NCBI RefSeq assembly: GCF_007115105.1
Contig: NZ_SULJ01000007.1
Location: 69,729 to 133,728 of the forward strand
Direction: 5' to 3'
Length of the DNA stretch: 64,000 nucleotides
From: Clostridium sp. HBUAS56010
Lineage (GTDB): Bacteria; Bacillota; Clostridia; Lachnospirales; Lachnospiraceae
Below are positions 8,253 to 63,288 of this stretch, one piece after another (position 1 is the first letter of the stretch; every line of letters starts with the position of its first letter). The position numbers were made by a program, and so were the translations under genes. Below the pieces are notes generated by a model. It made no database searches, had not been told where the DNA came from, and saw nothing but the letters and a program-made list of their open reading frames with translations.

Positions 8253-8288
8253 TCCCGGTTAAAAAACCGAATAAGAGGAGTCTGGGTC

Positions 8289-10640: not shown

Positions 10641-11653
10641 GGAAACCCGTGGGGGTCGCTGTGATTGGCTGCGGAATGATATCCCAAAACCACATAAAAG
10701 CATTACAAAATTTAGAAGGAATAGAAATTTACGCATTTTGTGACATTGACCGGTCAAAGGCAGAAGCCATGGCGGCGAGATACGGAGTGTCAAACATTTT
10801 TGATGATTACAAAAAGCTGCTTCTTGATGATGGGGTTGATGTGGTACATATCTGCACGCCGCATTATCTGCACCCCCAGATGACTGTGGAAGCATTTGAG
10901 GCAGGAAAGCATGTTTTGTGCGAGAAGCCCATGTCTTTTACGGTGGAAGAGGGGAAGCGGATGATCCGGGCAAGAGATGAAGCAGGAAAACAGCTTGCTA
11001 TCTGTTTTCAGAACAGATATAACGAATCTTCTATCTATATGAAACAGGTAATGGAATCCGGTGTTCTTGGACGCTTAATGGGGGCAAGGGCACAGGTTAC
11101 ATGGAACCGGAGACCAGAGTATTATGAGAATTCCCCATGGCGGGGCAGTTGGGAAAAGGAGGGCGGTGGAGTTTTAATCAATCAGGCGATCCATACCTTT
11201 GATCTTCTTTGCTGGCTCACCGGAAATATCCGTACGGTAGAGGCAAGTCTTTCCACAAAACGTCTGAAACAGACTATAGAAGTGGAAGATACGGTAGATG
11301 TGTTTATGACAGGAGAACAGGGGGAACGTTTTCTGTTCTACGCAAGCAATTGTTATGTAAGCAATGCACCGGTTGAACTGGAGATCATCTGTGACAGAGG
11401 AAGCCTGAAACTTGTGGGCAATGAAGTTGTGACAAACCGGGATGGAATCGTTACAAAACAGGATTATACTTCCGGTACGGTTCATGGAAAAGACTACTGG
11501 GGAAGCGGTCACGGATTGTTTATACAGGATTTTTATCACTGCATTAAAACGGGAGATAGGTTCCCTGTCAGTGGGGAAGAGGCGCTCTTTACAACAAGTC
11601 TTCTGGATGCAGTATACCGGTCAGGAAAAAGCGGAGAAGTAATTAAGATATAG
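10637..11653 (+). CDS. Gfo/Idh/MocA family oxidoreductase
   Basis: A 338-residue NAD(P)-dependent dehydrogenase-like protein: GCGMISQNH nucleotide-binding loop near residue 13, CEKPMS near 95, and GGGVLINQAIHTFDLLCW in the substrate domain, with the His at the family's usual catalytic position. It starts inside the stop of the AraC gene (ATGA overlap) behind GGGAGG, so its translation is coupled to the regulator. Third paralog in the cluster; substrate unknown, probably an imported sugar acid or glycoside. Confidence 0.86.
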   Translation: MRKPVGVAVIGCGMISQNHIKALQNLEGIEIYAFCDIDRSKAEAMAARYGVSNIFDDYKKLLLDDGVDVVHICTPHYLHPQMTVEAFEAGKHVLCEKPMSFTVEEGKRMIRARDEAGKQLAICFQNRYNESSIYMKQVMESGVLGRLMGARAQVTWNRRPEYYENSPWRGSWEKEGGGVLINQAIHTFDLLCWLTGNIRTVEASLSTKRLKQTIEVEDTVDVFMTGEQGERFLFYASNCYVSNAPVELEIICDRGSLKLVGNEVVTNRDGIVTKQDYTSGTVHGKDYWGSGHGLFIQDFYHCIKTGDRFPVSGEEALFTTSLLDAVYRSGKSGEVIKI

Positions 11654-43837: not shown

Positions 43838-45119
43838 TCTTGGTTTGAAGGTTGCGTCCCTGGTACTTGCCTTTGCTGTATGGATGGCAATTGTCAATAT
43901 CTCTAATCCGATCATTGAAGATTCACAGCCGGTTTCGGTAGAAGTTCGCAATGCAAAGGTTTTGGATGCCAGTAATCTGACGTATGAGATCATAGGCAAA
44001 GATGTGGTAACGGTAAGCTATCAGGTAAGAACAAGGGAACGTTCCCTTGTAAAAGCGTCAGACTTTCATGCCTACATTGACTTAAAGGATTATAATGTAA
44101 CCGGTGCGCTGCCGGTAAATGTAGAGATTAATAAAGACAAAGAAAACCTGGTGAAGAATGATACCATTACGGCAAAGCCTATGGTAATCCGGATTAATAC
44201 GGAAGCGCTTCAACGGAAGAAATTTGATCTGCAGGTAAAAACTGTGGGTGAAGTGGAGGACGGATATGCGCTGGGTCCCATCAGTCTTTCCGCAGACAGT
44301 GTGACGGTGGAAGGACCGGAATCACTAATTGGCCAGATCAGCCGAATGGGAATTGAAGTTGATGTGGATAATAAGAATGCAGATCTTAATGAAACCGCAG
44401 TTCCGTTCTTTTATGATGCCAATGACAATAAGCTTAATTTAGGGGATAAGGTAACGGTGAATCCTCACGAGGTCGAATGTCATGTGATGATATTAAAAGC
44501 CAAGAATCTGGCACTGAATTTTGAAGTGTCCGGTCAGGTGGCAGGCGGATATCGGTATACAGGAGTGGAAAGCAAAGTAAAGACTGTGCCCGTTGTTGGA
44601 ACCAAGTCGGTTCTTGCATCGTTATCGACCCTGTCCATTGTTTCAGATAAATTAAATATTGATGGTGCCACCGGGGATAAAGTGGTGGAGCTGGATTTAA
44701 GCCAGTACCTGCCGCCTAATACTTCGGTTGTGGGGAATGAATATAAGAATGTGACGGTTAAGCTCAAAGTAGAACCCTTAACAACCAGGGTGTTCACACT
44801 GGAACTTAACACTTTAGATAAAATTGGCACACAGGCCGATTATGATTATGAATTTGATCAGGAAACTACAGATGTTACCGTCCGGGGGCTCAAAGAGGAT
44901 CTTGATGCTCTGGATAAAGAAAAGCTAAATGCCATTCTTAATGTAACAAACCTCCATCCAGGACAGAACCCGGGTGCCTTGAAATTTGAACTTTCAGGCG
45001 GATTTGAAGTGGTTGGCTACACACCGTTTCATGTCATGCTGGCTCGAAAAGAACCTGTATCCAGTACGGTTGAGAGCACGACAGCATCCACAACAGAAGC
45101 GGCAGAGCCGCAATCGTAG
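43815..45119 (+). CDS. cdaR: CdaR, YbbR-domain regulator of CdaA
   Basis: A 434-residue protein with one N-terminal helix (NLGLKVASLVLAFAVWMAIV) and an extracytoplasmic part of four YbbR-type repeats (first PVSVEV, LTYEIIGKDVVTVSYQV), ending in a Ser/Thr-rich tail. In Bacillus and Listeria CdaR binds CdaA and tunes its activity. GGGAAGGCG precedes the ATG inside cdaA. Confidence 0.9.
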   Translation: MKEKLLNNLGLKVASLVLAFAVWMAIVNISNPIIEDSQPVSVEVRNAKVLDASNLTYEIIGKDVVTVSYQVRTRERSLVKASDFHAYIDLKDYNVTGALPVNVEINKDKENLVKNDTITAKPMVIRINTEALQRKKFDLQVKTVGEVEDGYALGPISLSADSVTVEGPESLIGQISRMGIEVDVDNKNADLNETAVPFFYDANDNKLNLGDKVTVNPHEVECHVMILKAKNLALNFEVSGQVAGGYRYTGVESKVKTVPVVGTKSVLASLSTLSIVSDKLNIDGATGDKVVELDLSQYLPPNTSVVGNEYKNVTVKLKVEPLTTRVFTLELNTLDKIGTQADYDYEFDQETTDVTVRGLKEDLDALDKEKLNAILNVTNLHPGQNPGALKFELSGGFEVVGYTPFHVMLARKEPVSSTVESTTASTTEAAEPQS

Positions 45120-45159
45120 ACTGTTTTTGCAGTCAGATCATAAAGGGAGGAAATTCAGT

Positions 45160-45423
45160 ATGGTTAGCGCTAAAGTTGCTATAAAGAATCCTACCGGTCT
45201 TCATCTGAGACCGGCAGGAATTCTTTGTAAGGAAGCCATGAACTTTAAATCTTCAGTGAGTTTTCGTTTTAAGAATACCACTGCCAATGCCAAAAGCGTG
45301 CTTAGCGTGTTGGGCGCCTGTGTAAAAAGCGGCGATGAGATTACCTTTGTCTGCGAGGGGGCAGATGAAGAGGAAGCTCTGGCGGCCATGGTCAAAGCTG
45401 TTGAGGAGGGCCTTGGCGAATAG
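45160..45423 (+). CDS. ptsH: HPr, phosphocarrier of the sugar phosphotransferase system
   Basis: An 87-residue protein with His15 in GLHLRPAG, the site phosphorylated by enzyme I, and Ser46 in NAKSVLSV, the site for HPr kinase. The Ser46 form acts with CcpA in carbon catabolite repression. GGGAGGAAA precedes ATG 45160, 40 bases after cdaR; ptsI follows 30 bases later. Leu replaces the more common Ala in GLHARPA. Confidence 0.95.
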   Translation: MVSAKVAIKNPTGLHLRPAGILCKEAMNFKSSVSFRFKNTTANAKSVLSVLGACVKSGDEITFVCEGADEEEALAAMVKAVEEGLGE

Positions 45424-45453
45424 ATAATTTATAATTAATAAGGAGGAAATGCA

Positions 45454-47169
45454 ATGTTTAAAGGTACAAGTGCATCTGCGGGAATCGGCATTGGGAAAGC
45501 CGTCCTCGTAGAAGAAACAGAATTAGTTATTAACAAAGAACCGATGGGAGATCCAGAGACGGAAAAAGCCCGTTTCCAGGCTGCGGTAAAGCAGGCAATG
45601 GAACAGACGGATGCGCTCGCTAAAGATCTTGCGAAAAGAGTAGGAGAGAAGGAAGCTGAGATTTTAAATGGCCATATTCTTCTCCTTTCCGACCCGATGC
45701 TGATTGGTGAAATTGAGAATACAATTTCAGGGGAGAAAGTCAGCGGAGAGTACGCAGTAGAAACCGTGTGCAATACCTATGCAGATATGTTTACTTCCAT
45801 GGGGGATGAACTGATGCAGCAGCGGGCAACTGATATGCGTGATATAAAAACAAGAATTCAAAAGATTCTTCTTGGCGTGAGTTCGGTTGATATTGCCGCA
45901 CTTCCAGAAGGAAGTGTTATTGTTGCAAAGGATTTAACCCCTTCTATGACGGCAGGAATTAATCCAGCCAATGTAACTGGTATTGTAACAGAGTTGGGTG
46001 GTAAGACTTCTCACAGCGCAATTCTGGCAAGAGCTTTGGAGATTCCGGCTGTTGTTGCTTTGGATGGCTTTTTAGACAAGGTAACAGATGGGGCAGAGCT
46101 GGTGTTGGATGGTTCTGATGGAAGCGTTTTTGTAAATCCAGAAGAGTCTGTAAGAGCTGAATATGCTGCAAAAAGGGAAGCTTTCTTAAAAGAAAAGAAA
46201 GAACTGGAGCAGTATATTGGAAAACCAACCATTACAAAAGATGGAGTGGAAGTAGAACTGGTTGCCAACATTGGAAAACCAGAAGATGTTGAAAAAGTTC
46301 TTCAGTATGATGGAGAAGGTGTTGGTCTTTTCCGGACTGAATTTTTATTTATGGATCGTACATCCATGCCAACCGAAGAAGAGCAGTTTGATGCTTATAA
46401 AAAAGCCGCTTCGGCGATGAATGGAAAACCAGTCATTATCCGTACCTTAGATATTGGCGGTGATAAAGAGATTCCTTATATGGGACTTAGCAAAGATGAG
46501 AATCCGTTCTTAGGATACCGGGCGATCCGTTTCTGTCTGGACCGGAAGGACGATGTGTATAAACCCCAGCTTCGTGCTCTTTTAAGAGCAAGTGCTTTTG
46601 GAAACATTCGCATTATGGTTCCTATGGTAACTTCACTGGAGGAGATTCGGGAAGCCAAAGCGCTTGTGGAAGAAGTGAAGAAGGAACTGGATGAAAAGGG
46701 AATTGCTTATAAGAAGGATATTGAGGTTGGTATCATGGTGGAGACAGCCGCCGCTTCTCTGATGGCAGATGTCTTTGCGAAAGAAGTCGATTTCTTTAGC
46801 ATAGGAACCAATGACTTAACTCAGTATACCATGTCTGTGGATCGTGGTAATGATAAGGTTTCATACCTTTATTCCCCACTCAATCCGGCTGTATTACGAA
46901 GCATCCGCCATATCATTGAATGTGGACGTAAAGAAGGCATTATGGTCGGAATGTGCGGAGAAGCGGCAAGTGACCCTATGATGATTCCTCTGCTTCTTGC
47001 CTTTGGCTTAAATGAATTCAGCATGAGCGCATCCGCAATATTAAATGCCAGAAAGCTGATTACTGGTTATAGCACAAAGGAATTGCAGGCAACTGCTGAT
47101 AAGGCAATGTCTTTTGTTACGGCAAAGGAAGTTGAAGAATATATGAGAGAGTTCGCCAGCCGTTCTTAA
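45454..47169 (+). CDS. ptsI: PTS enzyme I
   Basis: A 571-residue phosphoenolpyruvate-protein phosphotransferase: N-terminal HPr-binding and phospho-His domain (His187 in GGKTSHSAILAR), then the PEP-binding TIM barrel (GVGLFRTEFLFMDR, IRTLDIGGDKEI, GTNDLTQYTMSVDR and the Cys-containing MVGMCGEAASD). It passes phosphate from PEP to HPr. AAGGAGG precedes the ATG; a terminator follows. Confidence 0.96.
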   Translation: MFKGTSASAGIGIGKAVLVEETELVINKEPMGDPETEKARFQAAVKQAMEQTDALAKDLAKRVGEKEAEILNGHILLLSDPMLIGEIENTISGEKVSGEYAVETVCNTYADMFTSMGDELMQQRATDMRDIKTRIQKILLGVSSVDIAALPEGSVIVAKDLTPSMTAGINPANVTGIVTELGGKTSHSAILARALEIPAVVALDGFLDKVTDGAELVLDGSDGSVFVNPEESVRAEYAAKREAFLKEKKELEQYIGKPTITKDGVEVELVANIGKPEDVEKVLQYDGEGVGLFRTEFLFMDRTSMPTEEEQFDAYKKAASAMNGKPVIIRTLDIGGDKEIPYMGLSKDENPFLGYRAIRFCLDRKDDVYKPQLRALLRASAFGNIRIMVPMVTSLEEIREAKALVEEVKKELDEKGIAYKKDIEVGIMVETAAASLMADVFAKEVDFFSIGTNDLTQYTMSVDRGNDKVSYLYSPLNPAVLRSIRHIIECGRKEGIMVGMCGEAASDPMMIPLLLAFGLNEFSMSASAILNARKLITGYSTKELQATADKAMSFVTAKEVEEYMREFASRS

Positions 47170-47187
47170 TGATTGAAAGAAACAATG

Positions 47188-47219
47188 GACAGCCGTCACC
47201 TGGTGGTGGCTGTCTTTTT
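47188..47219 (+). terminator. terminator after ptsI
   Basis: GACAGCC-GT-CACC / GGTG-GCTGTC stem followed by TTTTT. Confidence 0.92.
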
Positions 47220-47266
47220 CTATAGATGAAATGTACTGTGATTTTTTACCAAAGGGGAATGTGACA

Positions 47267-48559
47267 ATGAGTGTTTATCTGATCAGTTATGCAGCATCTT
47301 TTTTGTTTGCAAGGGCAGGAGTTTACTGGCTGTCAGGCGTGGTATTAATATTGACCGCTCTTTTTTTATACTGGCGGGATTACAGAAGGACAGAGAATAT
47401 CATCCATTTAAGAGGCTTGTTTTCTTTGTTCTGGGTAGGAGGAGAAGGAATTGCCTGTTTTAAGCTTTCCAAGCTCTCCAGTGATTGGAATATTATTACA
47501 TGGCTCTGCTTTTTTGTAGCTTTTCTTGGATTTTATGTATCATTTGAATTTTTTGCAAAGATGCAGGGAGAAGTGGGAAGGCACCGTTCCAGTTGGTTCA
47601 GTTTTAAAGGATATGAAAAACCACTGTTTTTCTCAATCGTTTTGGTAACAGTTCTCTCTGTTGCTGCCTTTGTTGCAGAAGCGGTCATACTGGGATTTAT
47701 TCCGTTTTTTGTAAGAGGAGTGCCTCATGCTTATTCCTCTTTTCACATTAGCGGGCTGCATTATTTTACGGTTTCCAGTGTTCTGGTTCCTGCCCTTTCC
47801 GTGTTGTATTTCAGCATCGAACAGGGACGTAATAGTGCCCGTCTTGTGTTGGCTGTGATTTTTAATATAATTGCATGTGCCATTCCCCTTTTATGTGTAT
47901 CCCGTTTTCAGCTTATCTTTGCAGTTGGACTTGCGGTTCTTACTTATATTGCCATGGAACATCGGTTAAAGATTGCTTATGCCATTGGACTTGCGGTTGG
48001 AATGGTTCCTATCTATGTAATTCTGACTGTTTTGCGAGGACATGATGTAGCCTATTTAAACGGAATCTTTCAGATGAAAAACAGCAGTATGCCAATTTTT
48101 ATTACACAGCCTTATATGTATATTGCCAATAATTTTGATAATTTTAACTGTATGGTAGAGTGGCTTCCTTCCCATACCTTTGGTCTTCGCATGCTGTTTC
48201 CCCTATGGGCGCTGACAGGGCTTAAATTCCTGGTTCCGGCTCTGGTGGATTTTCCAATTTATGTCACAAAAGAAGAACTGACAACAGTCACGCTGTTCTA
48301 TGATTCTTTTTATGACTTCGGGATTGTGGGAGTCCTGCTGCTTGGCTGTATTCTTGGTGCCGCTGCATTCTTTTTAATGAGCATGATTAAAAGAATCCGT
48401 AACCCCATTGGTTATCTGTTTTATGCCCAGTTTGCCATGTACATGATTCTGTCTTTCTTCACCACATGGTTCAGTAATCCGGCTACCTGGTTTTACCTTG
48501 CAGTCACCGGTGCTTTGTATGTGTTCTGCTCCTGGAAAAGCAACGGAAGATCCTGGTAA
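47267..48559 (+). CDS. O-antigen polymerase-like membrane protein
   Basis: A 430-residue protein with about ten to twelve hydrophobic helices and one long extracytoplasmic loop before the last helices (ITQPYMYIANNFDNFNCMVE, containing the NFDNF stretch seen in oligosaccharide repeat unit polymerases). Such Wzy-like proteins link saccharide repeat units at the outer membrane face. AAAGGGG precedes ATG 47267; the frame opens at 47231 without a ribosome site. No other polysaccharide genes are close, which is unusual. The stop abuts the stop of the convergent AraC gene with no base between. Confidence 0.68.
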   Translation: MSVYLISYAASFLFARAGVYWLSGVVLILTALFLYWRDYRRTENIIHLRGLFSLFWVGGEGIACFKLSKLSSDWNIITWLCFFVAFLGFYVSFEFFAKMQGEVGRHRSSWFSFKGYEKPLFFSIVLVTVLSVAAFVAEAVILGFIPFFVRGVPHAYSSFHISGLHYFTVSSVLVPALSVLYFSIEQGRNSARLVLAVIFNIIACAIPLLCVSRFQLIFAVGLAVLTYIAMEHRLKIAYAIGLAVGMVPIYVILTVLRGHDVAYLNGIFQMKNSSMPIFITQPYMYIANNFDNFNCMVEWLPSHTFGLRMLFPLWALTGLKFLVPALVDFPIYVTKEELTTVTLFYDSFYDFGIVGVLLLGCILGAAAFFLMSMIKRIRNPIGYLFYAQFAMYMILSFFTTWFSNPATWFYLAVTGALYVFCSWKSNGRSW

Positions 48560-49405
48560 TCAGGACATGGACTTTAAGGTTACAGAAGGAGATACATGAA
48601 ACTGCTTTTTATATGCTCTGGAGAATGTGGAATAATTTTTAAACCCGCTTTGAAAGCATACTTCTGTAATGGACGTTCCTTTTTTTAAAAGATCCCTTGC
48701 CAGAAGAAGTCGTTTTTCCGTAACATAATCAAACAGTGTATATCCGGTTTCCTCCTTAAAGACGTGCATCAGATGGTATCTGCTTATATAACAGTCTTCT
48801 GCAATGGAATCCACAGACATATCATCTAGTAGATGGGTGTTGATGTAATCCATCACGGTAAGAATCCTCTTGTCCCCGGTTACAGGAGGTAAATAAGTAA
48901 CCAGATTGGTGAAGGAAGCCTGATTTAACTGGATCATGAATTTTATAAATACCACCTGGCAGTATAAATCCTTGGCATACCCATCGTGTGTAGAGGCATA
49001 TTCCAGATCAGTCAGGGTGTGGTATAGACTGCTTTTTTCCATGGAATGAAGCCGGAGCACATGGGAATGAAGCGTTTTGGATTTCTTGAAACAGTCACTT
49101 AAATCATAATCCTCTGCCTGATAAGTCTGTAAAAAACCAGGGGATAGATATACGATAATTCTCTCATAAGGAACAGAAGAATCAATGTCCGGTTTGTGGA
49201 TGTCGTTATGACTTACGAATAGGATATCATAAGGCTCCAGTTTATAGGAACAGCCTTCGATCCGGTAGGTGACGTTTCCCTGAATGAAGATAATGATTTT
49301 ATCGAAATCATGATAATGGTATTCAAAATCCTGCCTTTTTGTATCGAGAAGATGAAACAGCTTAAAGTCACTGTTTAAATATCCCCGTTTCTCATAGTTA
49401 TCCAT
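48560..49405 (-). CDS. AraC family transcriptional regulator
   Basis: A 281-residue regulator: N-terminal cupin ligand-binding domain (YHYHDFDKIIIFIQGNVTYR) and C-terminal AraC double helix-turn-helix (from about 180; SVDSIAEDCYISRYHLMHVF and ITEVCFQSGFKNYSTFSRAY). The start at 49405 has GGAAGGAG about 9 bases upstream; a longer frame to 49456 has none. It is divergent from the DapF-like gene (166 bases between the starts) and may control it. The ligand is unknown. Confidence 0.88.
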   Translation of the reverse strand: MDNYEKRGYLNSDFKLFHLLDTKRQDFEYHYHDFDKIIIFIQGNVTYRIEGCSYKLEPYDILFVSHNDIHKPDIDSSVPYERIIVYLSPGFLQTYQAEDYDLSDCFKKSKTLHSHVLRLHSMEKSSLYHTLTDLEYASTHDGYAKDLYCQVVFIKFMIQLNQASFTNLVTYLPPVTGDKRILTVMDYINTHLLDDMSVDSIAEDCYISRYHLMHVFKEETGYTLFDYVTEKRLLLARDLLKKGTSITEVCFQSGFKNYSTFSRAYKKQFHVSPSVTLKSMS

Positions 49406-49570
49406 AAGTGAATGCTCCTTCCTTTCTTTTTGTTTAGAATACAACACTTTTTGCAATATTTAAAGCATTATATTAATAGAAAAGATAAAAAGTGCGGTAT
49501 ATAATGAAGATAGAAGCGTATGGAAACCGGTGAGAACAGGTTTTGTCGTGCATTGGAAAGGAGTTTTATG

Positions 49571-50431
49571 ATGAATATTACTTTGGAAAAATATCATGGG
49601 CTGGGGAATGATTATCTGATTTTTGATCCCAATAAAAATGAACTGGAACTGACAGATGAAAATGTACGTCTGATCTGCGACCGTAACTTTGGAGTTGGAT
49701 CAGATGGACTTTTAGTTGGTCCCATTCTTGGCAGAGATAAACTGGAATTAAGAATCTATAATCCGGATGGAAGTGAAGCGCAAAACAGTGGAAACGGAGT
49801 CCGCATTTTCGGTAAATACTTAAAAGACGGGGGATATGTTCAGAAAAACCGTTTTATTATTAATACATTAAGCGGGCAGCAGACTCTTCAGTACCTGAAT
49901 GAAGAAGGAACAAAAATCAAAGTATCCATGGGGAAATTAAACTTTTTCAGTGATCAGATTCCTGTAACAGGACCAAGGAGAGAAGTTTTAAATGAAACCA
50001 TGCTGTTTGGAAGTATACCTTACCGTGTTACCTGTGTTAACATTGGGAATCCTCACTGCGTGATCTGGTTAAATGATATATCCAAAGATCTGGTGTGCAG
50101 GATTGGAAAATACTCAGAAGCTTCCGAATATTTTCCTGAGAAGATTAATACCCAGCTTCTCAAAGTACTGGACCGTACCAACATTGAGATTGAGATATAT
50201 GAGAGGGGAGCCGGATATACGCTGGCTTCCGGAACCAGTGGCTGTGCTGCCGCCGGAGCTGCTTACCGGATGGGACTGACTGATTCCAAGATGTATGTAC
50301 ACATGCCCGGCGGAATTCTGGAAGTTGAGATTGAAGAGGATGGGAATGTGCTCATGACTGGAGAAGTGGGATACGTTGGAAGATTTACTCTTTCCCATGA
50401 AATGGCAGAACAGTTAAAATCTCTCCAGTAA
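49571..50431 (+). CDS. diaminopimelate epimerase-like protein with both catalytic cysteines changed to serine
   Basis: A 286-residue DapF-fold protein. Conserved binding elements remain: GNDY (13), GSDGLL (43), NPDGS, IGNPH (159), INTQ and ERGAG (211). The two catalytic Cys of DapF are Ser: Ser73 in NSGNG (canonical MCGNG; codon AGT at 49787) and Ser220 in ASGTSG (canonical ACGTG; codon TCC at 50228). The canonical dapF of this genome is at 62479, so this is a second, altered copy. ATG 49571 is 7 bases after GGAG; ATG 49568 is possible. An aminotransferase and a HisC-like gene follow. It could act on another amino acid, as a lyase/dehydratase, or be a binding protein. Confidence 0.85.
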   Translation: MNITLEKYHGLGNDYLIFDPNKNELELTDENVRLICDRNFGVGSDGLLVGPILGRDKLELRIYNPDGSEAQNSGNGVRIFGKYLKDGGYVQKNRFIINTLSGQQTLQYLNEEGTKIKVSMGKLNFFSDQIPVTGPRREVLNETMLFGSIPYRVTCVNIGNPHCVIWLNDISKDLVCRIGKYSEASEYFPEKINTQLLKVLDRTNIEIEIYERGAGYTLASGTSGCAAAGAAYRMGLTDSKMYVHMPGGILEVEIEEDGNVLMTGEVGYVGRFTLSHEMAEQLKSLQ

Positions 50432-50466
50432 AACAAAAAATAAAGTAATTCATTCATAAGCCGGTC

Positions 50467-50505
50467 GTCTGTAAAGAAAATGTTTTTCTTTTTCAGGCGG
50501 CAGGC
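50467..50505 (+). other. long hairpin between the DapF-like and aminotransferase genes
   Basis: CGTCTG...CAGGCG plus AAAGAAAA/TTTTCTTT arms make a long hairpin with few loop bases. There is no T-run after it, so termination would be weak; it may separate the DapF-like message from the next promoter. Confidence 0.4.
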
Positions 50506-50543
50506 TTAAATGCGTTAAACCTCCAAAACAGAGCGTGATTGTA

Positions 50544-50573
50544 TTGACGGAATTACCAGTTTCATACTATAAT
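50544..50573 (+). promoter_or_regulatory. promoter of the aminotransferase/hisC operon
   Basis: TTGACG (50544-50549), 18-base spacer, TATAAT (50568-50573), about 50 bases before the aminotransferase ATG. It gives these genes their own start beside any read-through from the DapF-like gene. Confidence 0.75.
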
Positions 50574-50624
50574 ATTACAATGATTATGATTCTCACAAAA
50601 CTATTATGGGATAAAGGAAGGAAT

Positions 50625-51839
50625 ATGAAGATGATAGCAGACAAGATGAGACCACTTGTAGAAAACAATTCCGCAATCCGTGCCATGTTTGAGGAAGGAA
50701 AGAAGCTGGCTGCACGATACGGCAGAGAGAATGTATACGATTTCAGCCTGGGCAATCCCAACGTACCTGCTCCCGAAGCGGTGAATCAGGCAATTATAGA
50801 TATTGTAAAAAGAGAAGAGACGACTTTAGTCCATGGGTACATGAGCAATGCAGGATATGAAGATGTGCGTCAGGCTGTTGCAGAATCTTTAAACAGGCGG
50901 TTTGGAACCCGGTTTCATCTGGAAAACATCCTCATGACAGTAGGAGCCGCAAGTGGTATCAATGTGATATTGAAAACCATCCTGGATCCTCAGGATGAGG
51001 TGATTGTATTTGCTCCTTACTTTATGGAATATGGTTCCTATGTGAGAAATTATGATGGTGTACTGGTGGTTGTCCCCCCTGATACAGAGACCTTTTATCC
51101 GGATCTTAAGGCATTTGAAGAGAGGATTACAAAAAAAACAAAGGCAGTGATCATTAATACTCCGAATAATCCGACTGGTGTGATTTATTCTTCTGAGACA
51201 TTGCAGGAGATTGCAGATATATTAAAAAAGAAAGAAAAAGAATTCGGCAAATCCATAGTTCTGATTTCGGACGAGCCATACCGGGAACTTGCTTATGATG
51301 GAGCAGAAGTTCCTTATGTAACGCCTTTTTATCATAATACTGTCATTTGCTATTCCTATAGTAAGTCCCTGTCACTTCCTGGAGAAAGAATTGGATATCT
51401 GGTCATTCCTGATGAGTTAGATGATTCTGAACGGGCTATTGCAGCAGCAGTTATTGCCAACCGTGTACTTGGCTGTGTGAATGCCCCGTCTCTTATGCAG
51501 CGGGTGATCCTGCGTTGTGTGGATGAAAAAGTGAATGTGGAGGCTTACGATAAAAACAGGGAATTGCTGTATAACCGGTTAAGTGAGTATGGGTTTGAAT
51601 GCATTAAGCCACAAGGTGCATTTTACTTATTTGTCAAGTCTCCGGTGGATGACAAAGAGTTCTGCAGAGTTTGTAAGGAACACCGGGTTTTACTGGTTCC
51701 GGGAAGCTCTTTTGCCTGTCCTGGTTATGTGAGAATTGCATATTGTGTATCTTATGATCAGATTGTCCGTTCCCTTCCTGCATTTTTGGAGATAGCACAA
51801 TCTTATGGGTTAAGGGAAAAAAAGGAGGAACGCAATTGA
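50625..51839 (+). CDS. PLP-dependent aminotransferase, class I/II
   Basis: A 404-residue fold-type I aminotransferase of the aspartate aminotransferase group. FSLGNPNVPAP near residue 39, NTPNNPTGVIY, the Asp in ISDEPYRELAYDG, and the PLP lysine in YSYSKSLSLPGERIGY. AAAGGAAGG precedes ATG 50625. It shares a TTGA overlap with the next gene. The substrate is unknown; the neighbours (DapF-like, HisC-like) suggest an amino-acid conversion. Confidence 0.86.
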   Translation: MKMIADKMRPLVENNSAIRAMFEEGKKLAARYGRENVYDFSLGNPNVPAPEAVNQAIIDIVKREETTLVHGYMSNAGYEDVRQAVAESLNRRFGTRFHLENILMTVGAASGINVILKTILDPQDEVIVFAPYFMEYGSYVRNYDGVLVVVPPDTETFYPDLKAFEERITKKTKAVIINTPNNPTGVIYSSETLQEIADILKKKEKEFGKSIVLISDEPYRELAYDGAEVPYVTPFYHNTVICYSYSKSLSLPGERIGYLVIPDELDDSERAIAAAVIANRVLGCVNAPSLMQRVILRCVDEKVNVEAYDKNRELLYNRLSEYGFECIKPQGAFYLFVKSPVDDKEFCRVCKEHRVLLVPGSSFACPGYVRIAYCVSYDQIVRSLPAFLEIAQSYGLREKKEERN

Positions 51840-52894
51840 GATCCTGGGAAAGAAATATACGGAAAGTCGCTCCTTATGTACCGGGAGAACAGCCAAAAGA
51901 GAAAAATCTGATTAAATTAAATACCAATGAGAATCCATATCCACCGGCGCCAGGTGTGAAAAAGGCACTGGAGGAGCTGGGGTTTGATGAGTTTCGCAAA
52001 TATCCCGATCCAGCGTCTTCGGATCTTGTTCATGCAATTTCCAGGTATCATAATGTGACAGAAGAGGAAGTATTTGTTGGTGTAGGATCAGATGATGTAA
52101 TTGCCATGGCATTTCTTACATTTTTTAATTCTGATCTGCCAGTGCTTTTTCCTTCTATCAGCTATTCGTTTTATAAGGTCTGGGCTGATTTATTCAGGGT
52201 TTCTTATGAAACACCTGCATTGGATGATAATTTTTGCATTCATAAGCAAGATTATTATAAGGCAAATGGGGGTATTATATTCCCGAATCCTAATGCACCC
52301 ACTGGATTGCTTCTGCCGCTTTCGGAAGTGGAGGATATTATTTCCCATAATCAGAATTCTGTAGTTATTGTTGATGAAGCCTACATTGATTTTGGCGGGG
52401 AAAGTGCTGTCTCTCTTACACGGAAATATGAGAATCTTCTGGTTGTGCAAACATTCAGCAAATCACGTTCTCTTGCAGGAATGAGAATTGGATATGCCAT
52501 TGGTCATCCTGACTTAATTCATGCCCTTCATGATGTAAAATACTCCTATAATTCCTATACCATAAATCTTCCTTCCCAGAAGCTGGGGGTGGAAGCAGTC
52601 AATGATGACGGATATTTTAAGGAATGCATCAGAAAGATTATAAGAACCAGAGAGAATGCCAAAAAACGACTTACAGAACTTGGCTTTACTTTCCCGGACT
52701 CCATGACTAATTTTATATTTGCGGCACACAGGGAAAAAAGAGCAGTAGATATCTATAAGGCGTTAAAAGAAAACCGTATTTTTGTCCGTTATTTTAATCA
52801 GCCAGGACTTGACAATTATCTACGGATTTCCATTGGCACTGACGAAGAGATGGAGCAGTTATTTGACTTTTTAGAGGTTTTTCTTTCGAATTAA
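51836..52894 (+). CDS. hisC: histidinol-phosphate aminotransferase family
   Basis: A 352-residue PLP enzyme of the HisC family: LNTNENPYPPAP near residue 24, PNAPTG (for NPNNPTG), VDEAYIDFGGES and the PLP Lys in FSKSRSLAGMRIGY. The start is TTG 51836, 8 bases after AAGGAGG, overlapping the previous stop. No other his genes are nearby, so it may serve histidine synthesis or act on another phosphorylated or aromatic substrate in this small cluster. Confidence 0.85.
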   Translation: MRSWERNIRKVAPYVPGEQPKEKNLIKLNTNENPYPPAPGVKKALEELGFDEFRKYPDPASSDLVHAISRYHNVTEEEVFVGVGSDDVIAMAFLTFFNSDLPVLFPSISYSFYKVWADLFRVSYETPALDDNFCIHKQDYYKANGGIIFPNPNAPTGLLLPLSEVEDIISHNQNSVVIVDEAYIDFGGESAVSLTRKYENLLVVQTFSKSRSLAGMRIGYAIGHPDLIHALHDVKYSYNSYTINLPSQKLGVEAVNDDGYFKECIRKIIRTRENAKKRLTELGFTFPDSMTNFIFAAHREKRAVDIYKALKENRIFVRYFNQPGLDNYLRISIGTDEEMEQLFDFLEVFLSN

Positions 52895-52899
52895 TTCAT

Positions 52900-52928
52900 T
52901 TGCCAGAGAGCATCAGGGATAGTATAAT
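52900..52928 (+). promoter_or_regulatory. promoter of the AI-2E family gene
   Basis: TTGCCA (52900-52905), 17-base spacer, TATAAT (52923-52928). Transcription would begin near 52935, leaving an unusually short leader before the start codon. Confidence 0.65.
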
Positions 52929-52945
52929 GAATACAGGTGATGGAA

Positions 52946-54073
52946 ATGGAAGATGTGAAGAAATATTTAAGATTGATACTTAATATTATAATTCCCATTC
53001 TGTTCTTGTACCTCATTTGTGTATGGGGACCAAGACTGGTAAGGTTCTTTCTGCCTTTTGTAATAGGCTGGATGATTGCGATGATTGCCAATCCTTTGGT
53101 CCGTTTTCTGGAGAAACGTTTAAAAATTGTAAGAAAACACAGTTCGGTGTTGATTGTAGTTACGGTTCTCTTTTTAATTATAGCAGCATTTTATTTTCTT
53201 ATTTCCAAACTGATAACAGAGATGATCGGTTTTGCAGGAGATGTTCCTCAGTATTATGAAAGTGCATGGGTGGAGATTCAGAAAATGCTTTTGAGGGTGC
53301 AGGGAATTATACAGTTTTTACCTTTGGGAGTGCAGAATTCCATTAATCAGTTTTTTACACACATGGAGCAATATTTAAATGTGGCAGTGCAGAAGATTGC
53401 ATCTCCCACGGTTATGGCTGCAGGCAGTGTGGTAAAAAGTATTCCGGCAGCACTTGTGTACACCATTGTCACCATCTTTTCCTCCTATTTATTCATTGTG
53501 GACAGGGATAAGATTATGTCGGTGGTTCACCGCTATATTCCGGAAGGCGGAACCAGATATTACAGTTACTTGAGAAAGGATGTTAAGCATCTGGTGGGTG
53601 GTTATTTCCTTGCTCAGTTCAAGATTATGTTTGTCATAGGAGCAGTACTTGCAGTTGGATTTCTGATTCTGGGGGTGGATTATGCCCTGTTACTGGCAGT
53701 ATTGATCGCTATTCTTGATTTTTTGCCAATTTTGGGAACAGGAACATTTTTAATTCCCTGGGCGGTGATACGGATGCTTTCTGGTGAATATGCCTTTGGT
53801 TTAGGACTGATTGCAATTTATGTACTGACTATGGTCCTCAGGCAGATTATACAGCCAAAGATTGTAGGAGATACCATGGGGCTTGACCCTTTAATGACGT
53901 TGCTGTTTTTATACCTTGGATTTAAAATTAGTGGAATTGCAGGAATGATTTTAGCAGTGCCTGTTGGCATGCTGATTCTTAATTTATATGAATTTGGCGC
54001 TTTTGACCTGTTTTTTGGCAGTATAAGGACTTTGGTCCATGATATCAATGTCTTTCGGAAGAAGCCGGATTAA
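52946..54073 (+). CDS. AI-2E family (DUF20) membrane protein
   Basis: A 375-residue integral membrane protein with about eight helices: a hydrophobic N-terminal half, a soluble stretch (about residues 95-145), and the conserved C-terminal helices with LLAVLIAILDFLPILGTG, RQIIQPKIVGDTMGLDP and GMILAVPVGMLI. The family includes YtvI and PerM, with transport or sodium/proton exchange roles that differ by member; the substrate here is unknown. The first plausible start is ATG 52946, 4 bases after AGGTGAT, an exact anti-Shine-Dalgarno match; GTG 52937 and ATG 52940 are alternatives. Confidence 0.82.
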   Translation: MEDVKKYLRLILNIIIPILFLYLICVWGPRLVRFFLPFVIGWMIAMIANPLVRFLEKRLKIVRKHSSVLIVVTVLFLIIAAFYFLISKLITEMIGFAGDVPQYYESAWVEIQKMLLRVQGIIQFLPLGVQNSINQFFTHMEQYLNVAVQKIASPTVMAAGSVVKSIPAALVYTIVTIFSSYLFIVDRDKIMSVVHRYIPEGGTRYYSYLRKDVKHLVGGYFLAQFKIMFVIGAVLAVGFLILGVDYALLLAVLIAILDFLPILGTGTFLIPWAVIRMLSGEYAFGLGLIAIYVLTMVLRQIIQPKIVGDTMGLDPLMTLLFLYLGFKISGIAGMILAVPVGMLILNLYEFGAFDLFFGSIRTLVHDINVFRKKPD

Positions 54074-54111
54074 GTTATATTGCAAAAGTTTGATTTGGAG
54101 GATATCATAAC

Positions 54112-55056
54112 ATGAACATAAGATTGAAAATCGCCGCAGGTATCATAGCGGGTCTTATGACCTCCGCAATGGTTTCAACCCCTATGAGTGGTTTTTCCGG
54201 AGAAGCATGGCACCTGGAAAACGGGCAGTATGTAGATGCCTCTGGTCAGCCGATAGCCGGTGCACTGGAAAAAGGAATCACTGTCTCAAAATATCAGAAC
54301 CGTCAGAATGAAACAGGGGGTGGAATTGATTGGGACAAAGTGAAAGAGTCAGGTGTCTCTTTTGCTATGGTGCGTGTTGGTTATTTGAACGACATGGACC
54401 CGTATTATTCCATGAATATGAAAAATGCCGCAAAGAGCGGAATAAAAACCGGCGTATTTTTCTATACACAGGCATTGGATACAGAGACTGCTGTAAAAGA
54501 AGCGGAATATGTGCTCCAGGCAGTAAAAGATTACCCGATCTCTTATCCGATTGCCTATGATGTTGAGTCCCGGTATCTGCTGGATAATCGTCTTTCTAAA
54601 CGGCAGATCACGGATAATATTAATGCTTTTTGTAAAGTTATATCGGATGCCGGATATCAGCCAATTGTATATGCCAATAATAAATGGCTGACCTATCATA
54701 TTGATCTGAGCCAGATTCCTTATGATATCTGGTATGCCAGATACGGAAGTGTCAACGATTGTAAAAACAGGACCATATGGCAATGTACGGATCAGGGAAG
54801 AGTCGATGGAATTGACGGAGATGTAACCATTGAATTTTCTTTTAAGGATTACAGCAGCATTATCCCCTCAGAAGGCTGGAAGACCATTGGAGGCAAACGT
54901 TACTATACAAAGAATTATGAAAAGCAGACTGGTTGGCTCCAGATAGGAGACCAGTGGTATTATCTGGATCAGGATGGAGCTATGATACAGGATACTTCCA
55001 GAGTTATAGATGGAACTGTCTATAACTTTGGAACAGATGGAGGATTGCTCCAATAA
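54112..55056 (+). CDS. GH25 lysozyme with C-terminal cell-wall-binding repeats
   Basis: A 314-residue secreted muramidase. Signal peptide to about residue 23-30; GH25 domain (about 53-250) with AMVRVGYLND, the catalytic DxE pair in IAYDVESR and the closing DGIDGDVTIEF. Two or three tryptophan/tyrosine-rich choline-binding-type repeats end the protein (GWKTIGGKRYYTKN, GWLQIGDQWYYLDQDG). Odd: the first family motif GIDVS reads GITVS, so its Asp is Thr57. TTGGAGG precedes the ATG. Cuts peptidoglycan in wall turnover or spore processes (inferred). Confidence 0.85.
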   Translation: MNIRLKIAAGIIAGLMTSAMVSTPMSGFSGEAWHLENGQYVDASGQPIAGALEKGITVSKYQNRQNETGGGIDWDKVKESGVSFAMVRVGYLNDMDPYYSMNMKNAAKSGIKTGVFFYTQALDTETAVKEAEYVLQAVKDYPISYPIAYDVESRYLLDNRLSKRQITDNINAFCKVISDAGYQPIVYANNKWLTYHIDLSQIPYDIWYARYGSVNDCKNRTIWQCTDQGRVDGIDGDVTIEFSFKDYSSIIPSEGWKTIGGKRYYTKNYEKQTGWLQIGDQWYYLDQDGAMIQDTSRVIDGTVYNFGTDGGLLQ

Positions 55057-55057
55057 G

Positions 55058-55085
55058 AAAAGCCGCCTATAAAGCGGCTTTTTCT
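55058..55085. terminator. bidirectional terminator
   Basis: AAAGCCGC-CTATAA-AGCGGCTTT stem with A-run before and T-run after. Serves the GH25 gene (plus) and the ABC-2 exporter operon (minus). Confidence 0.92.
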
Positions 55086-55093
55086 GTGTCCTG

Positions 55094-55879
55094 TCAGGAA
55101 CCGGTGGACTGGTATCTGGAAAGACCAAATCGCCAGAACAGGGCGGCGGGCAGTAGAAAGAGACAACTGGCAATAGGAAAAAGTCCGTACCAGGGATTGT
55201 CCGTTTTGCCGGTTATATAAAGAAAAGGGTAGTACTGAAAAAGGGCAAAGGGAATCAGGTAAGTACAGATAGTAAGCACCGCCTTACCATATATTCCTAT
55301 GGGATATTTACCGTATTCTCTGGCGCCGTCGGTAACTATATTCATAAATTCCAATCCCTCCAGAGTGAAGAAACAGATGGAGGCAAAGATCAGATAAATG
55401 GCAGTAAACACAGCTACCCCTCCTGTAATCATAAAAAGCACAGTTCCTGCACGGGAGAGATTCCATTTAATGGAAGATGCGGATACTGCATAGATAAACA
55501 TAACGACAGCCTGAATAAGGCGTCCGATCCTGGTCAGCTCAATTTTGCTGCATATAACGGTGAACAGACAATTCCTGGGGCGCAGAAGCATCCGGTCAAA
55601 TTCCCCGTTTCCAATAATGGTCTCAAAAGTGTCCAGACTGCGAAAGACGGTTTCTGCTATGGTATATGCCATTAGGGTAATGGAGAAACACAATAGGATC
55701 TCCTTATAAGAAAAGCCTTTGACCTGATGAAACCGGTCCATCATGAAGTATATTCCCAAAAACATGTTAAAGGAAATTAAAAACTGCCCCAGTGTGGTAA
55801 GCAAAAAGGAAACCTTATGCTGCATCATGCTTTTTAAATGGATCAGAAAATAGCGCTGATATAATTGAATTGAATTCAT
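55094..55879 (-). CDS. ABC-2 type transporter permease (DUF990-like), second subunit
   Basis: A 261-residue membrane protein, six predicted helices, start ATG 55879, last gene of a three-gene minus-strand operon. It has the family layout of an N-terminal amphipathic stretch (LIHLKSMMQHKVSFLLTTLG) and a terminal GLFPIASCLFLLPAALFW. Partner of the permease at 55893. The exporter family is often found beside multidrug or viologen-type exporters; substrate unknown. Confidence 0.8.
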   Translation of the reverse strand: MNSIQLYQRYFLIHLKSMMQHKVSFLLTTLGQFLISFNMFLGIYFMMDRFHQVKGFSYKEILLCFSITLMAYTIAETVFRSLDTFETIIGNGEFDRMLLRPRNCLFTVICSKIELTRIGRLIQAVVMFIYAVSASSIKWNLSRAGTVLFMITGGVAVFTAIYLIFASICFFTLEGLEFMNIVTDGAREYGKYPIGIYGKAVLTICTYLIPFALFQYYPFLYITGKTDNPWYGLFPIASCLFLLPAALFWRFGLSRYQSTGS

Positions 55880-55892
55880 CTTGTATCTCCTT

Positions 55893-56696
55893 TCAGCCTC
55901 CCTGGATTACGATTCGTTTCAGGGCACGTTTTTCTAACATAAGTCCCAAAAGCAGGGCTGTAATAAGCCAGAAGATCTGCAGAGCCAGACTTATATATAA
56001 ATCCGATCCTGTCAAATCTCCTCCGAAGATCCGAAAAGGGACATTCTGGGCAGATGCAAAAGGCAGCAGGCTTACAAACTCACGAATTCCTCCAGGAAGA
56101 AAGGGCAGCGGGATTACCGAGCCGCTTAAAAATTCTGACAAAGAGGTGATCATGATCTTCGTCCCTTGTGAAGAAATGGTATAAAAGACAGACATATAAA
56201 CAATCATACCAAAAGCGACTACAAAGAGCAGTCCCAAAATCATGGAAATCAGAGTGAGAAACCAGATTTTCATATCGCCGGGCATGGAAAGTCCGTATGG
56301 TTCGGGCAGAAACCAGGCAAATATCAGAATGGGCATACACCGGAGGACTGCTTTGGACAAGCGGACGGCAAGTCCTCTTACAAACCACATATGATAAAGG
56401 CGGACAGGCCGGCAAAGCTCATAAGCGACATTTCCGCTGGTGATGAATTCAAATAACTGGGATTCCCAGAACCATGTCATAAAAAGAGCCAGAAATGCCT
56501 GCTGCAGCCATATGTAGGTGCTAAAAGCCTGAAAGTCCATGGGAAAACTGTCTGGGGAAGCTTCATAAAAGGCATGGAATAAAAGGATCTGCATGATTCC
56601 CCAAAAAAACTGGGTAACCATACCGGAAAGAGCGGCTGCCCGGTATTGAAGTCCATGAATAAAACGGATTCGAAAAAAAGACCAGTATTTTTTCAT
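55893..56696 (-). CDS. ABC-2 type transporter permease (DUF990-like), first subunit
   Basis: A 267-residue membrane protein with six predicted helices. It begins with a positive stretch (MKKYWSFFRIRFIHGLQYRA) and contains the conserved GNVAYELCRPVRLYHMWF loop. Lies 12 bases after the ATPase gene and 13 before the second permease gene in transcription order, so the three proteins form one exporter. Confidence 0.8.
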   Translation of the reverse strand: MKKYWSFFRIRFIHGLQYRAAALSGMVTQFFWGIMQILLFHAFYEASPDSFPMDFQAFSTYIWLQQAFLALFMTWFWESQLFEFITSGNVAYELCRPVRLYHMWFVRGLAVRLSKAVLRCMPILIFAWFLPEPYGLSMPGDMKIWFLTLISMILGLLFVVAFGMIVYMSVFYTISSQGTKIMITSLSEFLSGSVIPLPFLPGGIREFVSLLPFASAQNVPFRIFGGDLTGSDLYISLALQIFWLITALLLGLMLEKRALKRIVIQGG

Positions 56697-62478: not shown

Positions 62479-63288
62479 ATGAAATTTACAAAGATGCAGG
62501 GAATTGGTAATGACTATGTTTATATTAATTGTTTTGAAGAAAAGGTAGAGAATCCGGCAGAGCTTTCAAAGAAAGTCAGTGACCGGCACTTTGGAATCGG
62601 TTCTGACGGACTGATTCTGATCTGTCCTTCCGAGAAAGCAGACTGCCGGATGCGTATGTTCAATGCAGATGGGTCGGAGAGCTCCATGTGCGGCAATGGA
62701 ATCCGCTGTGTGGGAAAATATGTTTACGATCATCATCTTGTGGAGAAGACAGAATTTGATGTGGAGACAGAAGCGGGAATCAAGCATTTGAAGGTAATTG
62801 CAAAAGAGGGGAAAGCGGTGAAGATTACGGTGGATATGGGAATCCCGGAACTGACCAGCCAATTGCCTGAATCTATTTGCATTGACGGTAAAGACTATGA
62901 GTTCATTGGCATTTCCGTGGGCAATCCTCATGCTGTTTATTATATGGATGGAATTGATTCGCTGGATCTGGAAGCCATTGGTCCAGGCTTTGAAACTCAT
63001 GAGCGGTTTCCGGAGAGAACCAATTCTGAATTCATTGAAGTAATAAGTCCGGACTACATCCGTATGAGGGTGTGGGAGAGAGGCAGCGGGGAGACCTGGG
63101 CATGTGGAACAGGAGCAACTGCCAGTGCGGTGGCTTCTGCAATGAGCGGAAGAACTTCAGATACCGTTGAAGTGGAATTAAAGGGTGGAAATTTGACCAT
63201 ACACTGGGACAGGAATACAGGTCATGTATTCATGACAGGACCGGCAGTCGAAGTGTTTCAGGGAGAATTTGACATAAAGAATCTATAG
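62479..63288 (+). CDS. dapF: diaminopimelate epimerase
   Basis: A 269-residue enzyme that converts LL- to meso-diaminopimelate for lysine and peptidoglycan. Both catalytic cysteines are present: Cys71 in SMCGNGIRC and Cys209 in WACGTGATA; ERGSGET carries the substrate-binding Glu-Arg. It forms an operon with dapL 18 bases downstream and starts 16 bases after the ANTAR gene (AGAGG upstream). Reference for the altered paralog at 49571. Confidence 0.96.
   Translation: MKFTKMQGIGNDYVYINCFEEKVENPAELSKKVSDRHFGIGSDGLILICPSEKADCRMRMFNADGSESSMCGNGIRCVGKYVYDHHLVEKTEFDVETEAGIKHLKVIAKEGKAVKITVDMGIPELTSQLPESICIDGKDYEFIGISVGNPHAVYYMDGIDSLDLEAIGPGFETHERFPERTNSEFIEVISPDYIRMRVWERGSGETWACGTGATASAVASAMSGRTSDTVEVELKGGNLTIHWDRNTGHVFMTGPAVEVFQGEFDIKNL

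Follow-up and report, generated by a model that had tools for sequence, protein, structure and literature searches.

DapF-type cofactor-free epimerases work with two thiols. In the window, by which we mean the whole 64,000-nucleotide stretch of Clostridium sp. HBUAS56010 DNA that was analyzed, one gene encodes a DapF-like protein in which serine occupies both thiol positions. The question raised by this locus, and by the clade to which it belongs, is whether the DapF fold has been recruited to regulate cell-wall supply in a dedicated DAP-binding protein, or whether a Ser/Ser pair is capable of the chemistry. We refer to the protein and its relatives as DapF-S, because the name DapX is already used by GapMind for an acetyl-DAP aminotransferase (PMC7311316, excerpt). 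Among the matches listed from the open-licence part of PMC, we found no description of a Ser/Ser DapF clade, of a DapF/AraC pair, or of a CarB-DapF fusion, although a report elsewhere is possible; the available excerpts of PMC5764234 and PMC8142540 contain nothing on a Ser/Ser DapF.

A DapF-Fold Protein with Serine at Both Catalytic Positions

The window encodes two DapF-type proteins, with the following features.

49571..50431, + strand: DapF-S, a DapF-fold protein of 286 amino acids with Ser73 and Ser220 (open reading frame, profile, alignment, and model)
49787..49789, + strand: AGT, codon 73, giving Ser73 in place of the first catalytic cysteine (sequence and alignment)
50228..50230, + strand: TCC, codon 220, giving Ser220 in place of the second catalytic cysteine (sequence and alignment)
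62479..63288, + strand: normal Cys/Cys dapF with Cys71 and Cys209 (profile and sequence)

The reading frame of dapF-S, for which the ATG at 49568 is an alternative start codon, bears out the residues read in the preliminary description: the two codons give Ser73 and Ser220, and the GNDY, GSDG, IGNPH, and ERG motifs are all present. The protein scored 234.3 bits against the DapF equivalog model TIGR00652 (cut-off 114.65), and DAP_epimerase was its sole match in a Pfam search at E 0.01, a threshold at which the proline racemase family gave no match. The closest solved structures by sequence were those of Arabidopsis and Anabaena DapF, and in a Foldseek search with the AlphaFold2 model (mean pLDDT 93.0, pTM 0.86), DapF structures topped the list, with E. 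coli DapF (4ijz_B) at a TM of 0.89. Ser73 and Ser220 sit immediately before the starts of the model helices 74-87 and 221-233. In Anabaena DapF, Asn66, Glu215, Arg216, Asn164, and Asn197 hold the distal L-centre of DAP, and the proximal amine is held by Asn13 and others (PMC12039745, excerpt); by alignment, the DapF-S equivalents are N64, E211, R212, N160, N193, and N13.

Thus, the TIGR00652 score, the fold, and the residues at both ends of DAP place DapF-S with DapF, whereas the two cysteines on opposite faces are replaced by Ser73 and Ser220, and a Cys/Cys pair occurs in none of 125 clade members, a count from which three rows with Cys at site 2, lying outside the clade, had been set aside. 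Because the catalytic pair was tested for and found to be absent, DapF-S is, as judged from its sequence, not classed as a DAP epimerase but as DapF-like in fold and ligand site. That TIGR00652 labels DapF-S proteins epimerases although this pair is absent should be taken as an annotation warning.

The window genome contains just one further DapF-type protein, the Cys/Cys copy at 62479, and this copy is followed by a dapL gene (615.7 bits) that runs off the window end, in agreement with the earlier claim that a normal DapF is encoded there with dapL. The genome also possesses ddh.

Residue Conservation in the DapF-S Clade

A scan of 299 genomes of the window's family yielded a DapF-S set with 47-83% identity (two partial matches at 52 and 63%), apart from the listed ordinary DapF proteins of these genomes, which reached at most 41%. 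At 49 family DapF-S loci, read together with the window, site 1 (position 73) was Ser in 46 and Gly in 3, and site 2 (position 220) was Ser in 43, Thr in 4, Asn in 1, and uncovered in 1. A genome-contig scan provided 80 named loci, which are the best 80 of 528 relatives, so that rates among them are biased toward close kin; the residue pair was S/S in 79 of these best 80 of 528 and S/N in the remaining one. They include Lacrimispora, Hungatella, Enterocloster, Dorea, Faecalicatena, Robinsoniella, and Extibacter, and the nearest named kin among them are [Clostridium] aerotolerans and Clostridium sp. 12(A), both at 91%. Beyond the family, S/S members were found in two genomes of the same order (G302 and G539) and in three of the same class (G874, G655, and G854). 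With profile A1, the lowest-scoring S/S member of the order reached 339.5 bits, compared with 269.2 for the C/S form and 256.8 for the best ordinary DapF.

Residue pairs were counted over distinct sequences only (125 of 179), among fetched members of enough length; matches (including L053 and L054) that covered fewer than about 230 residues of the query were left out of the alignment, and 3 of 182 rows, those with Cys at site 2 (L196, L200, and L202), were set aside. The 125 distinct DapF-S proteins comprised 114 S/S, five G/S, four S/T, one S/N, and one C/S, with Ser kept at site 1 in 119 and at site 2 in 120. Five of the DAP contacts (N13, N64, N193, E211, and R212) were kept in all 125, the Gly73 forms included, and N160 in 122. 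In a quick tree of 68 of the 226 rows, from which columns 73, 216, and 220 were left out, the C/S row L187, which formed a long branch, grouped with 49 non-Cys rows on one side of a branch with an SH-aLRT of 100, and 17 Cys/Cys rows and one Ala/Cys CarB-fusion row lay on the opposite side. Gly73 appeared in two separate places on this tree and so arose at least twice. The three set-aside rows fell outside the DapF-S clade, and no Cys/Cys homolog was found in the same neighborhood by searches that began from the S/S protein and were, for that reason, biased against finding Cys forms.

Among close relatives, the median dN/dS of dapF-S (0.034) was the lowest of seven genes, followed by AraC (0.050), ptsI (0.057), the polymerase gene (0.062), the aminotransferase (0.065), ytvI (0.103, one pair), and the HisC-like gene (0.128); these values give a rough ranking, as dS was near saturation (median 1.78 for dapF-S) and pairs with dS < 2 only were used. 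By this measure, dapF-S is under strong purifying constraint. Taken together, these alignments and the tree indicate that DapF-S is a clade of Lachnospiraceae and a few other Clostridia and is neither a strain quirk nor a product of decay; its double replacement goes beyond chance, because it is conserved through the clade, and the pair is far from confined to this strain.

Two further residue patterns were considered and rejected. Tyr216 is invariant in DapF-S but does not serve as a mark of new chemistry, because a Cys/Cys group outside the clade (L196-L198, L200, L202, and L204) also has it; this group belongs to another family of the class, and the other canonical rows mostly carry Glu at this position. 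Four other cysteines, C36, C155, C163, and C225 (125, 123, 121, and 121 of the 125 DapF-S proteins), were rejected as stand-ins for the lost pair, because they occur in canonical rows too: C36, C155, and C163 in 6 of 33 distinct rows each, and C225 in 19 of 33.

A Divergent AraC-Type Regulator and Its Predicted Operator

The region upstream of dapF-S in the window has the following features.

48560..49405, - strand: AraC-type regulator with a cupin-like N-terminal domain, divergent from dapF-S and its conserved partner (open reading frame list, profiles, and alignment)
49444..49473, + strand: predicted AraC operator with direct-repeat half-sites (conserved pattern)
49444-49456, + strand: first half-site of the operator, ACACTTTTTGCAA (conserved pattern)
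49465-49473, + strand: second half-site of the operator, GCATTATAT, 21 bp apart from the first (conserved pattern)
49500..49505, + strand: predicted -10 element TATAAT of the dapF-S promoter (conserved pattern)

The AraC gene most likely starts with the ATG at 49405 and not with the listed TTG at 49456, because most aligned homologs begin near that methionine. The link between dapF-S and this divergent gene, which the preliminary description had pointed out in the window, extended to 69 of the 80 named loci (best 80 of 528) and to 69 of the 76 having at least 1.3 kb upstream. The pair stays together across different settings, being found between hflX-like and addB-like genes, before an argS-like gene, or before glnA, an ANTAR-type gene, and dapF; these neighbor names (hflX, addB/addA, argS, glnA, ANTAR, asd, dapA, and lysC) were read from the translations by eye. 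A canonical dapF lay at most 4 kb downstream of dapF-S in 18 of the best 80 of 528.

Between AraC and dapF-S lies a direct repeat in which RCAnnnTTTGCAATAT is followed by GCAT, with 21 bp from the start of the first element to GCAT; the predicted -10 element lies about 56 bp from the same start. When upstream regions of at least 600 bases were compared, one per distinct sequence (n = 129), the first half-site was present in 91 of the 98 with AraC versus 2 of the 31 without it. A looser operator pattern matched 83 of the 129 regions (last 450 bases), compared with 103 of 2580 shuffled regions. Within the window, the full pattern has a single occurrence, at 49444, with zero mismatches; at up to two mismatches, 0.05 matches would be expected in the window by chance, and 5 of 100 shuffles had one. 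At the sequence level, the locus thus has the makeup of an AraC module, namely an AraC gene divergent from its target and, ahead of the -10 element of that target, a predicted operator with direct repeats. Nevertheless, dapF-S is not merely an accessory of AraC, because in 31 of the 129 regions it is present without AraC nearby.

In 17 of the 80 named loci (best 80 of 528), a Ddl-type gene (D-Ala-D-Ala-ligase family) lies directly upstream of dapF-S. These 17 loci are Lacrimispora- or Hungatella-like; the gene stands between AraC and dapF-S, and the predicted operator precedes it where AraC is present. Two examples are:

L084:4982-6004, + strand: Ddl-type gene (family profile)
L056:4239-5315, + strand: Ddl-type gene (family profile)

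The two Ddl-type genes that were scored reached 270.4 and 275.4 bits (TIGR01205 cut-off 245.65). The window locus is without such a gene, and the single Ddl above the cut-off in its genome lies elsewhere.

Canonical DapF and Lysine Genes in the Carrier Genomes

The earlier suggestion that the dapF-S copy is free for another task agrees with the gene content of its own family, as 61 of the 63 own-family genomes carrying DapF-S (G000, G046, G293, and G625 among them) also proved to encode a Cys/Cys DapF. G205 has a partial second DapF copy with the first Cys, and in the fragmented genome G092 the second match is the other half of the S/S gene. Outside the family, genome searches found no other DapF-type protein in G302, G539, G874, and G854, and G655 showed a DapF-type match of 64 residues within a carB-like frame at the end of a contig. 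G874 needs no epimerase, because it has ddh, an enzyme gene that the genome searches did not detect in G302, G539, or G854. G302 (97% complete) contains dapB, dapL, and a lysA-type gene of 267 bits, below the 297.9 cut-off, and G539 (77%) does likewise; the lysA-type gene of the window genome, at 278 bits, is also below this cut-off. In G854 (99%, one contig), dapB is present, lysA exceeds the cut-off at 444 bits, and an Alr-like gene (148.5 bits, alr cut-off 168) lies upstream of dapF-S, two genes away. The genomes in which DapF-S stands alone sharpen the question of Ser/Ser chemistry.

Possible Function of DapF-S

For two-base epimerization, each face must be supplied with an acid/base, a role that neither Gly nor Asn can fill. 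The accepted residues (S/G at 73 and S/T/N at 220) presumably resemble helix-cap preferences and not an acid/base pair. Because the Gly73 and Asn220 forms, which are without an acid/base, keep the invariant DAP contacts, and because replacing Cys with Ser strongly lowers the turnover of the DapF-like HisR (PMC11602996, excerpt), the reading that we tentatively prefer, at somewhat less than an even chance, is that DapF-S is a DAP-binding, non-epimerising derivative of DapF under its own AraC switch. DapF-S would grip DAP or a close diamino-dicarboxylate such as lanthionine without exchange of the alpha proton, and the AraC protein would sense a signal through its cupin-like domain and control dapF-S from the predicted operator. 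DapF-S might then act by binding, buffering, or reporting DAP, or by pairing with DapF or another protein. In Lacrimispora- and Hungatella-like genomes, the AraC switch may also drive the Ddl-type gene, an arrangement that points to tuning of peptidoglycan precursors. Since the substrate-gripping parts are untouched and most copies have a switch of their own beside them, the gene probably encodes a substrate-binding regulator or an unusual enzyme and not a decayed protein. However, several points count against the preferred reading: the conservation of Ser at the two sites (119 and 120 of 125) seems tighter than a binding role by itself would require, and the CarB fusions tolerate Ala in addition to Ser at the first site; G302, G539, and G854, with dapB, a lysA-type gene, and no detected ddh, are without another DapF-type protein; proline racemase superfamily members that have no thiol or contain Ser show activity (PMC4113996, excerpt); and dapF-S persists without a nearby AraC gene in 31 of 129 upstream regions.

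Because these three genomes, of which G302 and G539 also carry dapL, show no other DapF-type protein, the main rival, unlikely though we consider it, is that DapF-S is a thiol-free DAP epimerase with Ser73 and Ser220 as its acid/base pair, serving as the sole epimerase in some Clostridia and as an AraC-controlled back-up in Lachnospiraceae. Such an enzyme would be immune to oxidation, electrophiles, and thiol-reactive inhibitors, and H2O2 does inactivate C. glutamicum DapF via a disulfide of the catalytic pair (PMC5296763, excerpt). The five DAP contacts kept in 125 of 125 distinct members are consistent with this alternative, as are the Ser/Cys 4-hydroxyproline epimerase and the Ser/Thr trans-3-hydroxyproline dehydratase of the proline racemase superfamily, the activity of which is proven (PMC4113996, excerpt). 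However, the Gly73, Thr220, and Asn220 forms and the lowered turnover of the HisR mutants argue against a Ser/Ser epimerase, and so does the window genome, which also has Cys/Cys dapF, dapL, and ddh. In the genomes where DapF-S stands alone, the gap could be filled by the PLP-type DapF2, a proposed DapF replacement in Staphylococcus, Gemella, and Peptostreptococcus lacking dapF (PMC9026213, excerpt), and G854 has the Alr-like gene near dapF-S; G302 and G539 are incomplete.

It is also rather doubtful that DapF-S uses a single base to catalyze some other reaction of a DAP-like amino acid, for example, dehydration or elimination of a beta-substituted diamino-dicarboxylate. Of the 125 distinct members, 118 carry Ser or Thr at each site (114 S/S and 4 S/T), the dehydratase with a Ser/Thr pair provides a precedent in a related fold (PMC4113996, excerpt), and a C/S relative (L187) in genome G317, together with a fusion of cysteine-synthase-type and DapF-S-type domains (L264), hints at lanthionine-type substrates. 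Against such a reaction, no metabolic partner gene is conserved, the contexts vary, and Gly73 forms exist.

Compared with DapF itself (TIGR00652; Anabaena 9mro, Arabidopsis 3ejx, and E. coli 4ijz), DapF-S is alike in fold, length, DAP contacts, and the helix starts at the catalytic positions, but differs in having neither catalytic Cys, in forming a separate clade (full SH-aLRT support on the quick tree), and in possessing its own AraC gene and predicted operator. E. coli provides an example of a DapF-fold protein whose action does not depend on the two cysteines, since DapF C73A/C217A still binds and stimulates RppH (PMC4227774, excerpt); however, this is the second job of an active enzyme, whereas DapF-S appears to be a dedicated thiol-less paralog. 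The proline racemase superfamily has a related fold in which one or both thiols are replaced by Ser or Thr (PMC4113996, excerpt), but its substrates differ, DapF-S has no Pfam match to it at E 0.01, and activity is proven there. The histidine racemases CntK and HisR share a DapF-like fold and are likewise paralogs with another substrate, but both catalytic Cys are found in CntK and HisR, and the HisR pocket is without a basic residue (PMC11602996, excerpt). DapF-S thus lacks the features of a histidine racemase, having no Cys pair and keeping the DAP-binding R212. A Cys-to-Thr aspartate/glutamate racemase is noted in the available part of PMC8142540.

Genes Downstream of dapF-S

Two aminotransferase genes follow dapF-S in the window, both as neighbors only.

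50535..51839, + strand: class I aminotransferase, PRK06836 family, 599.5 bits (open reading frame list and profile)
51836..52894, + strand: HisC-like aminotransferase, 292.8 bits, hisC cut-off 276.55 (open reading frame list and profile)

The preliminary description had correctly placed these two genes downstream of dapF-S and AraC divergent from it, but the tie to aminotransferases that it drew from this arrangement did not hold in relatives. A class I aminotransferase lay directly downstream in 1 of the 80 named loci (best 80 of 528) and within 8 kb in 21 of them; it adjoins dapF-S in the window and at L103/L057, which represent one genome. Thus, of the proposed combination of a clade-wide Ser/Ser pair with constant adjacency to the aminotransferases, the former stands (114 of 125) and the latter does not (1 of the best 80 of 528). 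Most Lacrimispora-like loci have a large GGDEF/EAL gene in between, which is absent from this position in the window. On gene order across the best 80 of 528, an aminotransferase partnership was therefore rejected, and it is very improbable that DapF-S opens an amino-acid pathway shared with these two enzymes, despite their adjacency in the window and at L103/L057 and the 21 loci with a gene within 8 kb.

A pseudogene or sequencing error is next to impossible. In favor of it, a single relative (L053) is broken in two frames and the G214 and G127 matches run over a stop, but the S/S pair in 114 of 125 distinct proteins, the dN/dS of 0.034, and the conserved predicted operator refute decay or error.

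At L084, the gene separating dapF-S from the aminotransferase (7188-11027, + strand) encodes a PAS/GGDEF/EAL protein of 1279 amino acids. On the other side of the window locus, between a ptsI-like gene and AraC, an oligosaccharide repeat-unit polymerase-like gene was observed at 47231-48559 (+ strand; TIGR04370, 212.7 bits vs. 40), and no other glycan genes near it were noticed among the open reading frames listed for 45000-56000.

Fusion Proteins Containing DapF-Type Domains

Genome G317, which holds the C/S form (L187 and L215), also encodes a protein in which a cysteine-synthase/SbnA-type PLP domain is fused to a DapF-S-type domain (L264:1689-3302, - strand). In the latter domain, site 1 is Ala or falls in a gap, and Ser occupies site 2. 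A search of this genome found none of dapB, dapL, and ddh. This gene set suggests a lanthionine-like substrate.

CarB-DapF fusion proteins, about 1312-1358 amino acids long where whole, were observed in relatives in the family, order, and class.

CarB-DapF loci: L254-L262, L265 (the same gene as L199), and L203; L263 is cut by a contig end

The first Cys of the DapF part is lost in 10 of 11 genomes (7 Ala and 3 Ser), and the second is kept in 10 of 11. Like DapF-S, these fusions keep the DAP contacts, as judged by eye, and have lost the first Cys; unlike DapF-S, they mostly keep the second Cys, have E and not Y before the second site, and are joined to carbamoyl-phosphate synthase. The three genomes without a stand-alone DapF are 58, 89, and 79% complete. 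The other 8 of the 11 genomes also have one, which is Cys/Cys in seven and has only its first Cys readable in the eighth, and such loss of a thiol beside a working copy would agree with the DapF fold having been put to new use in ligand binding.
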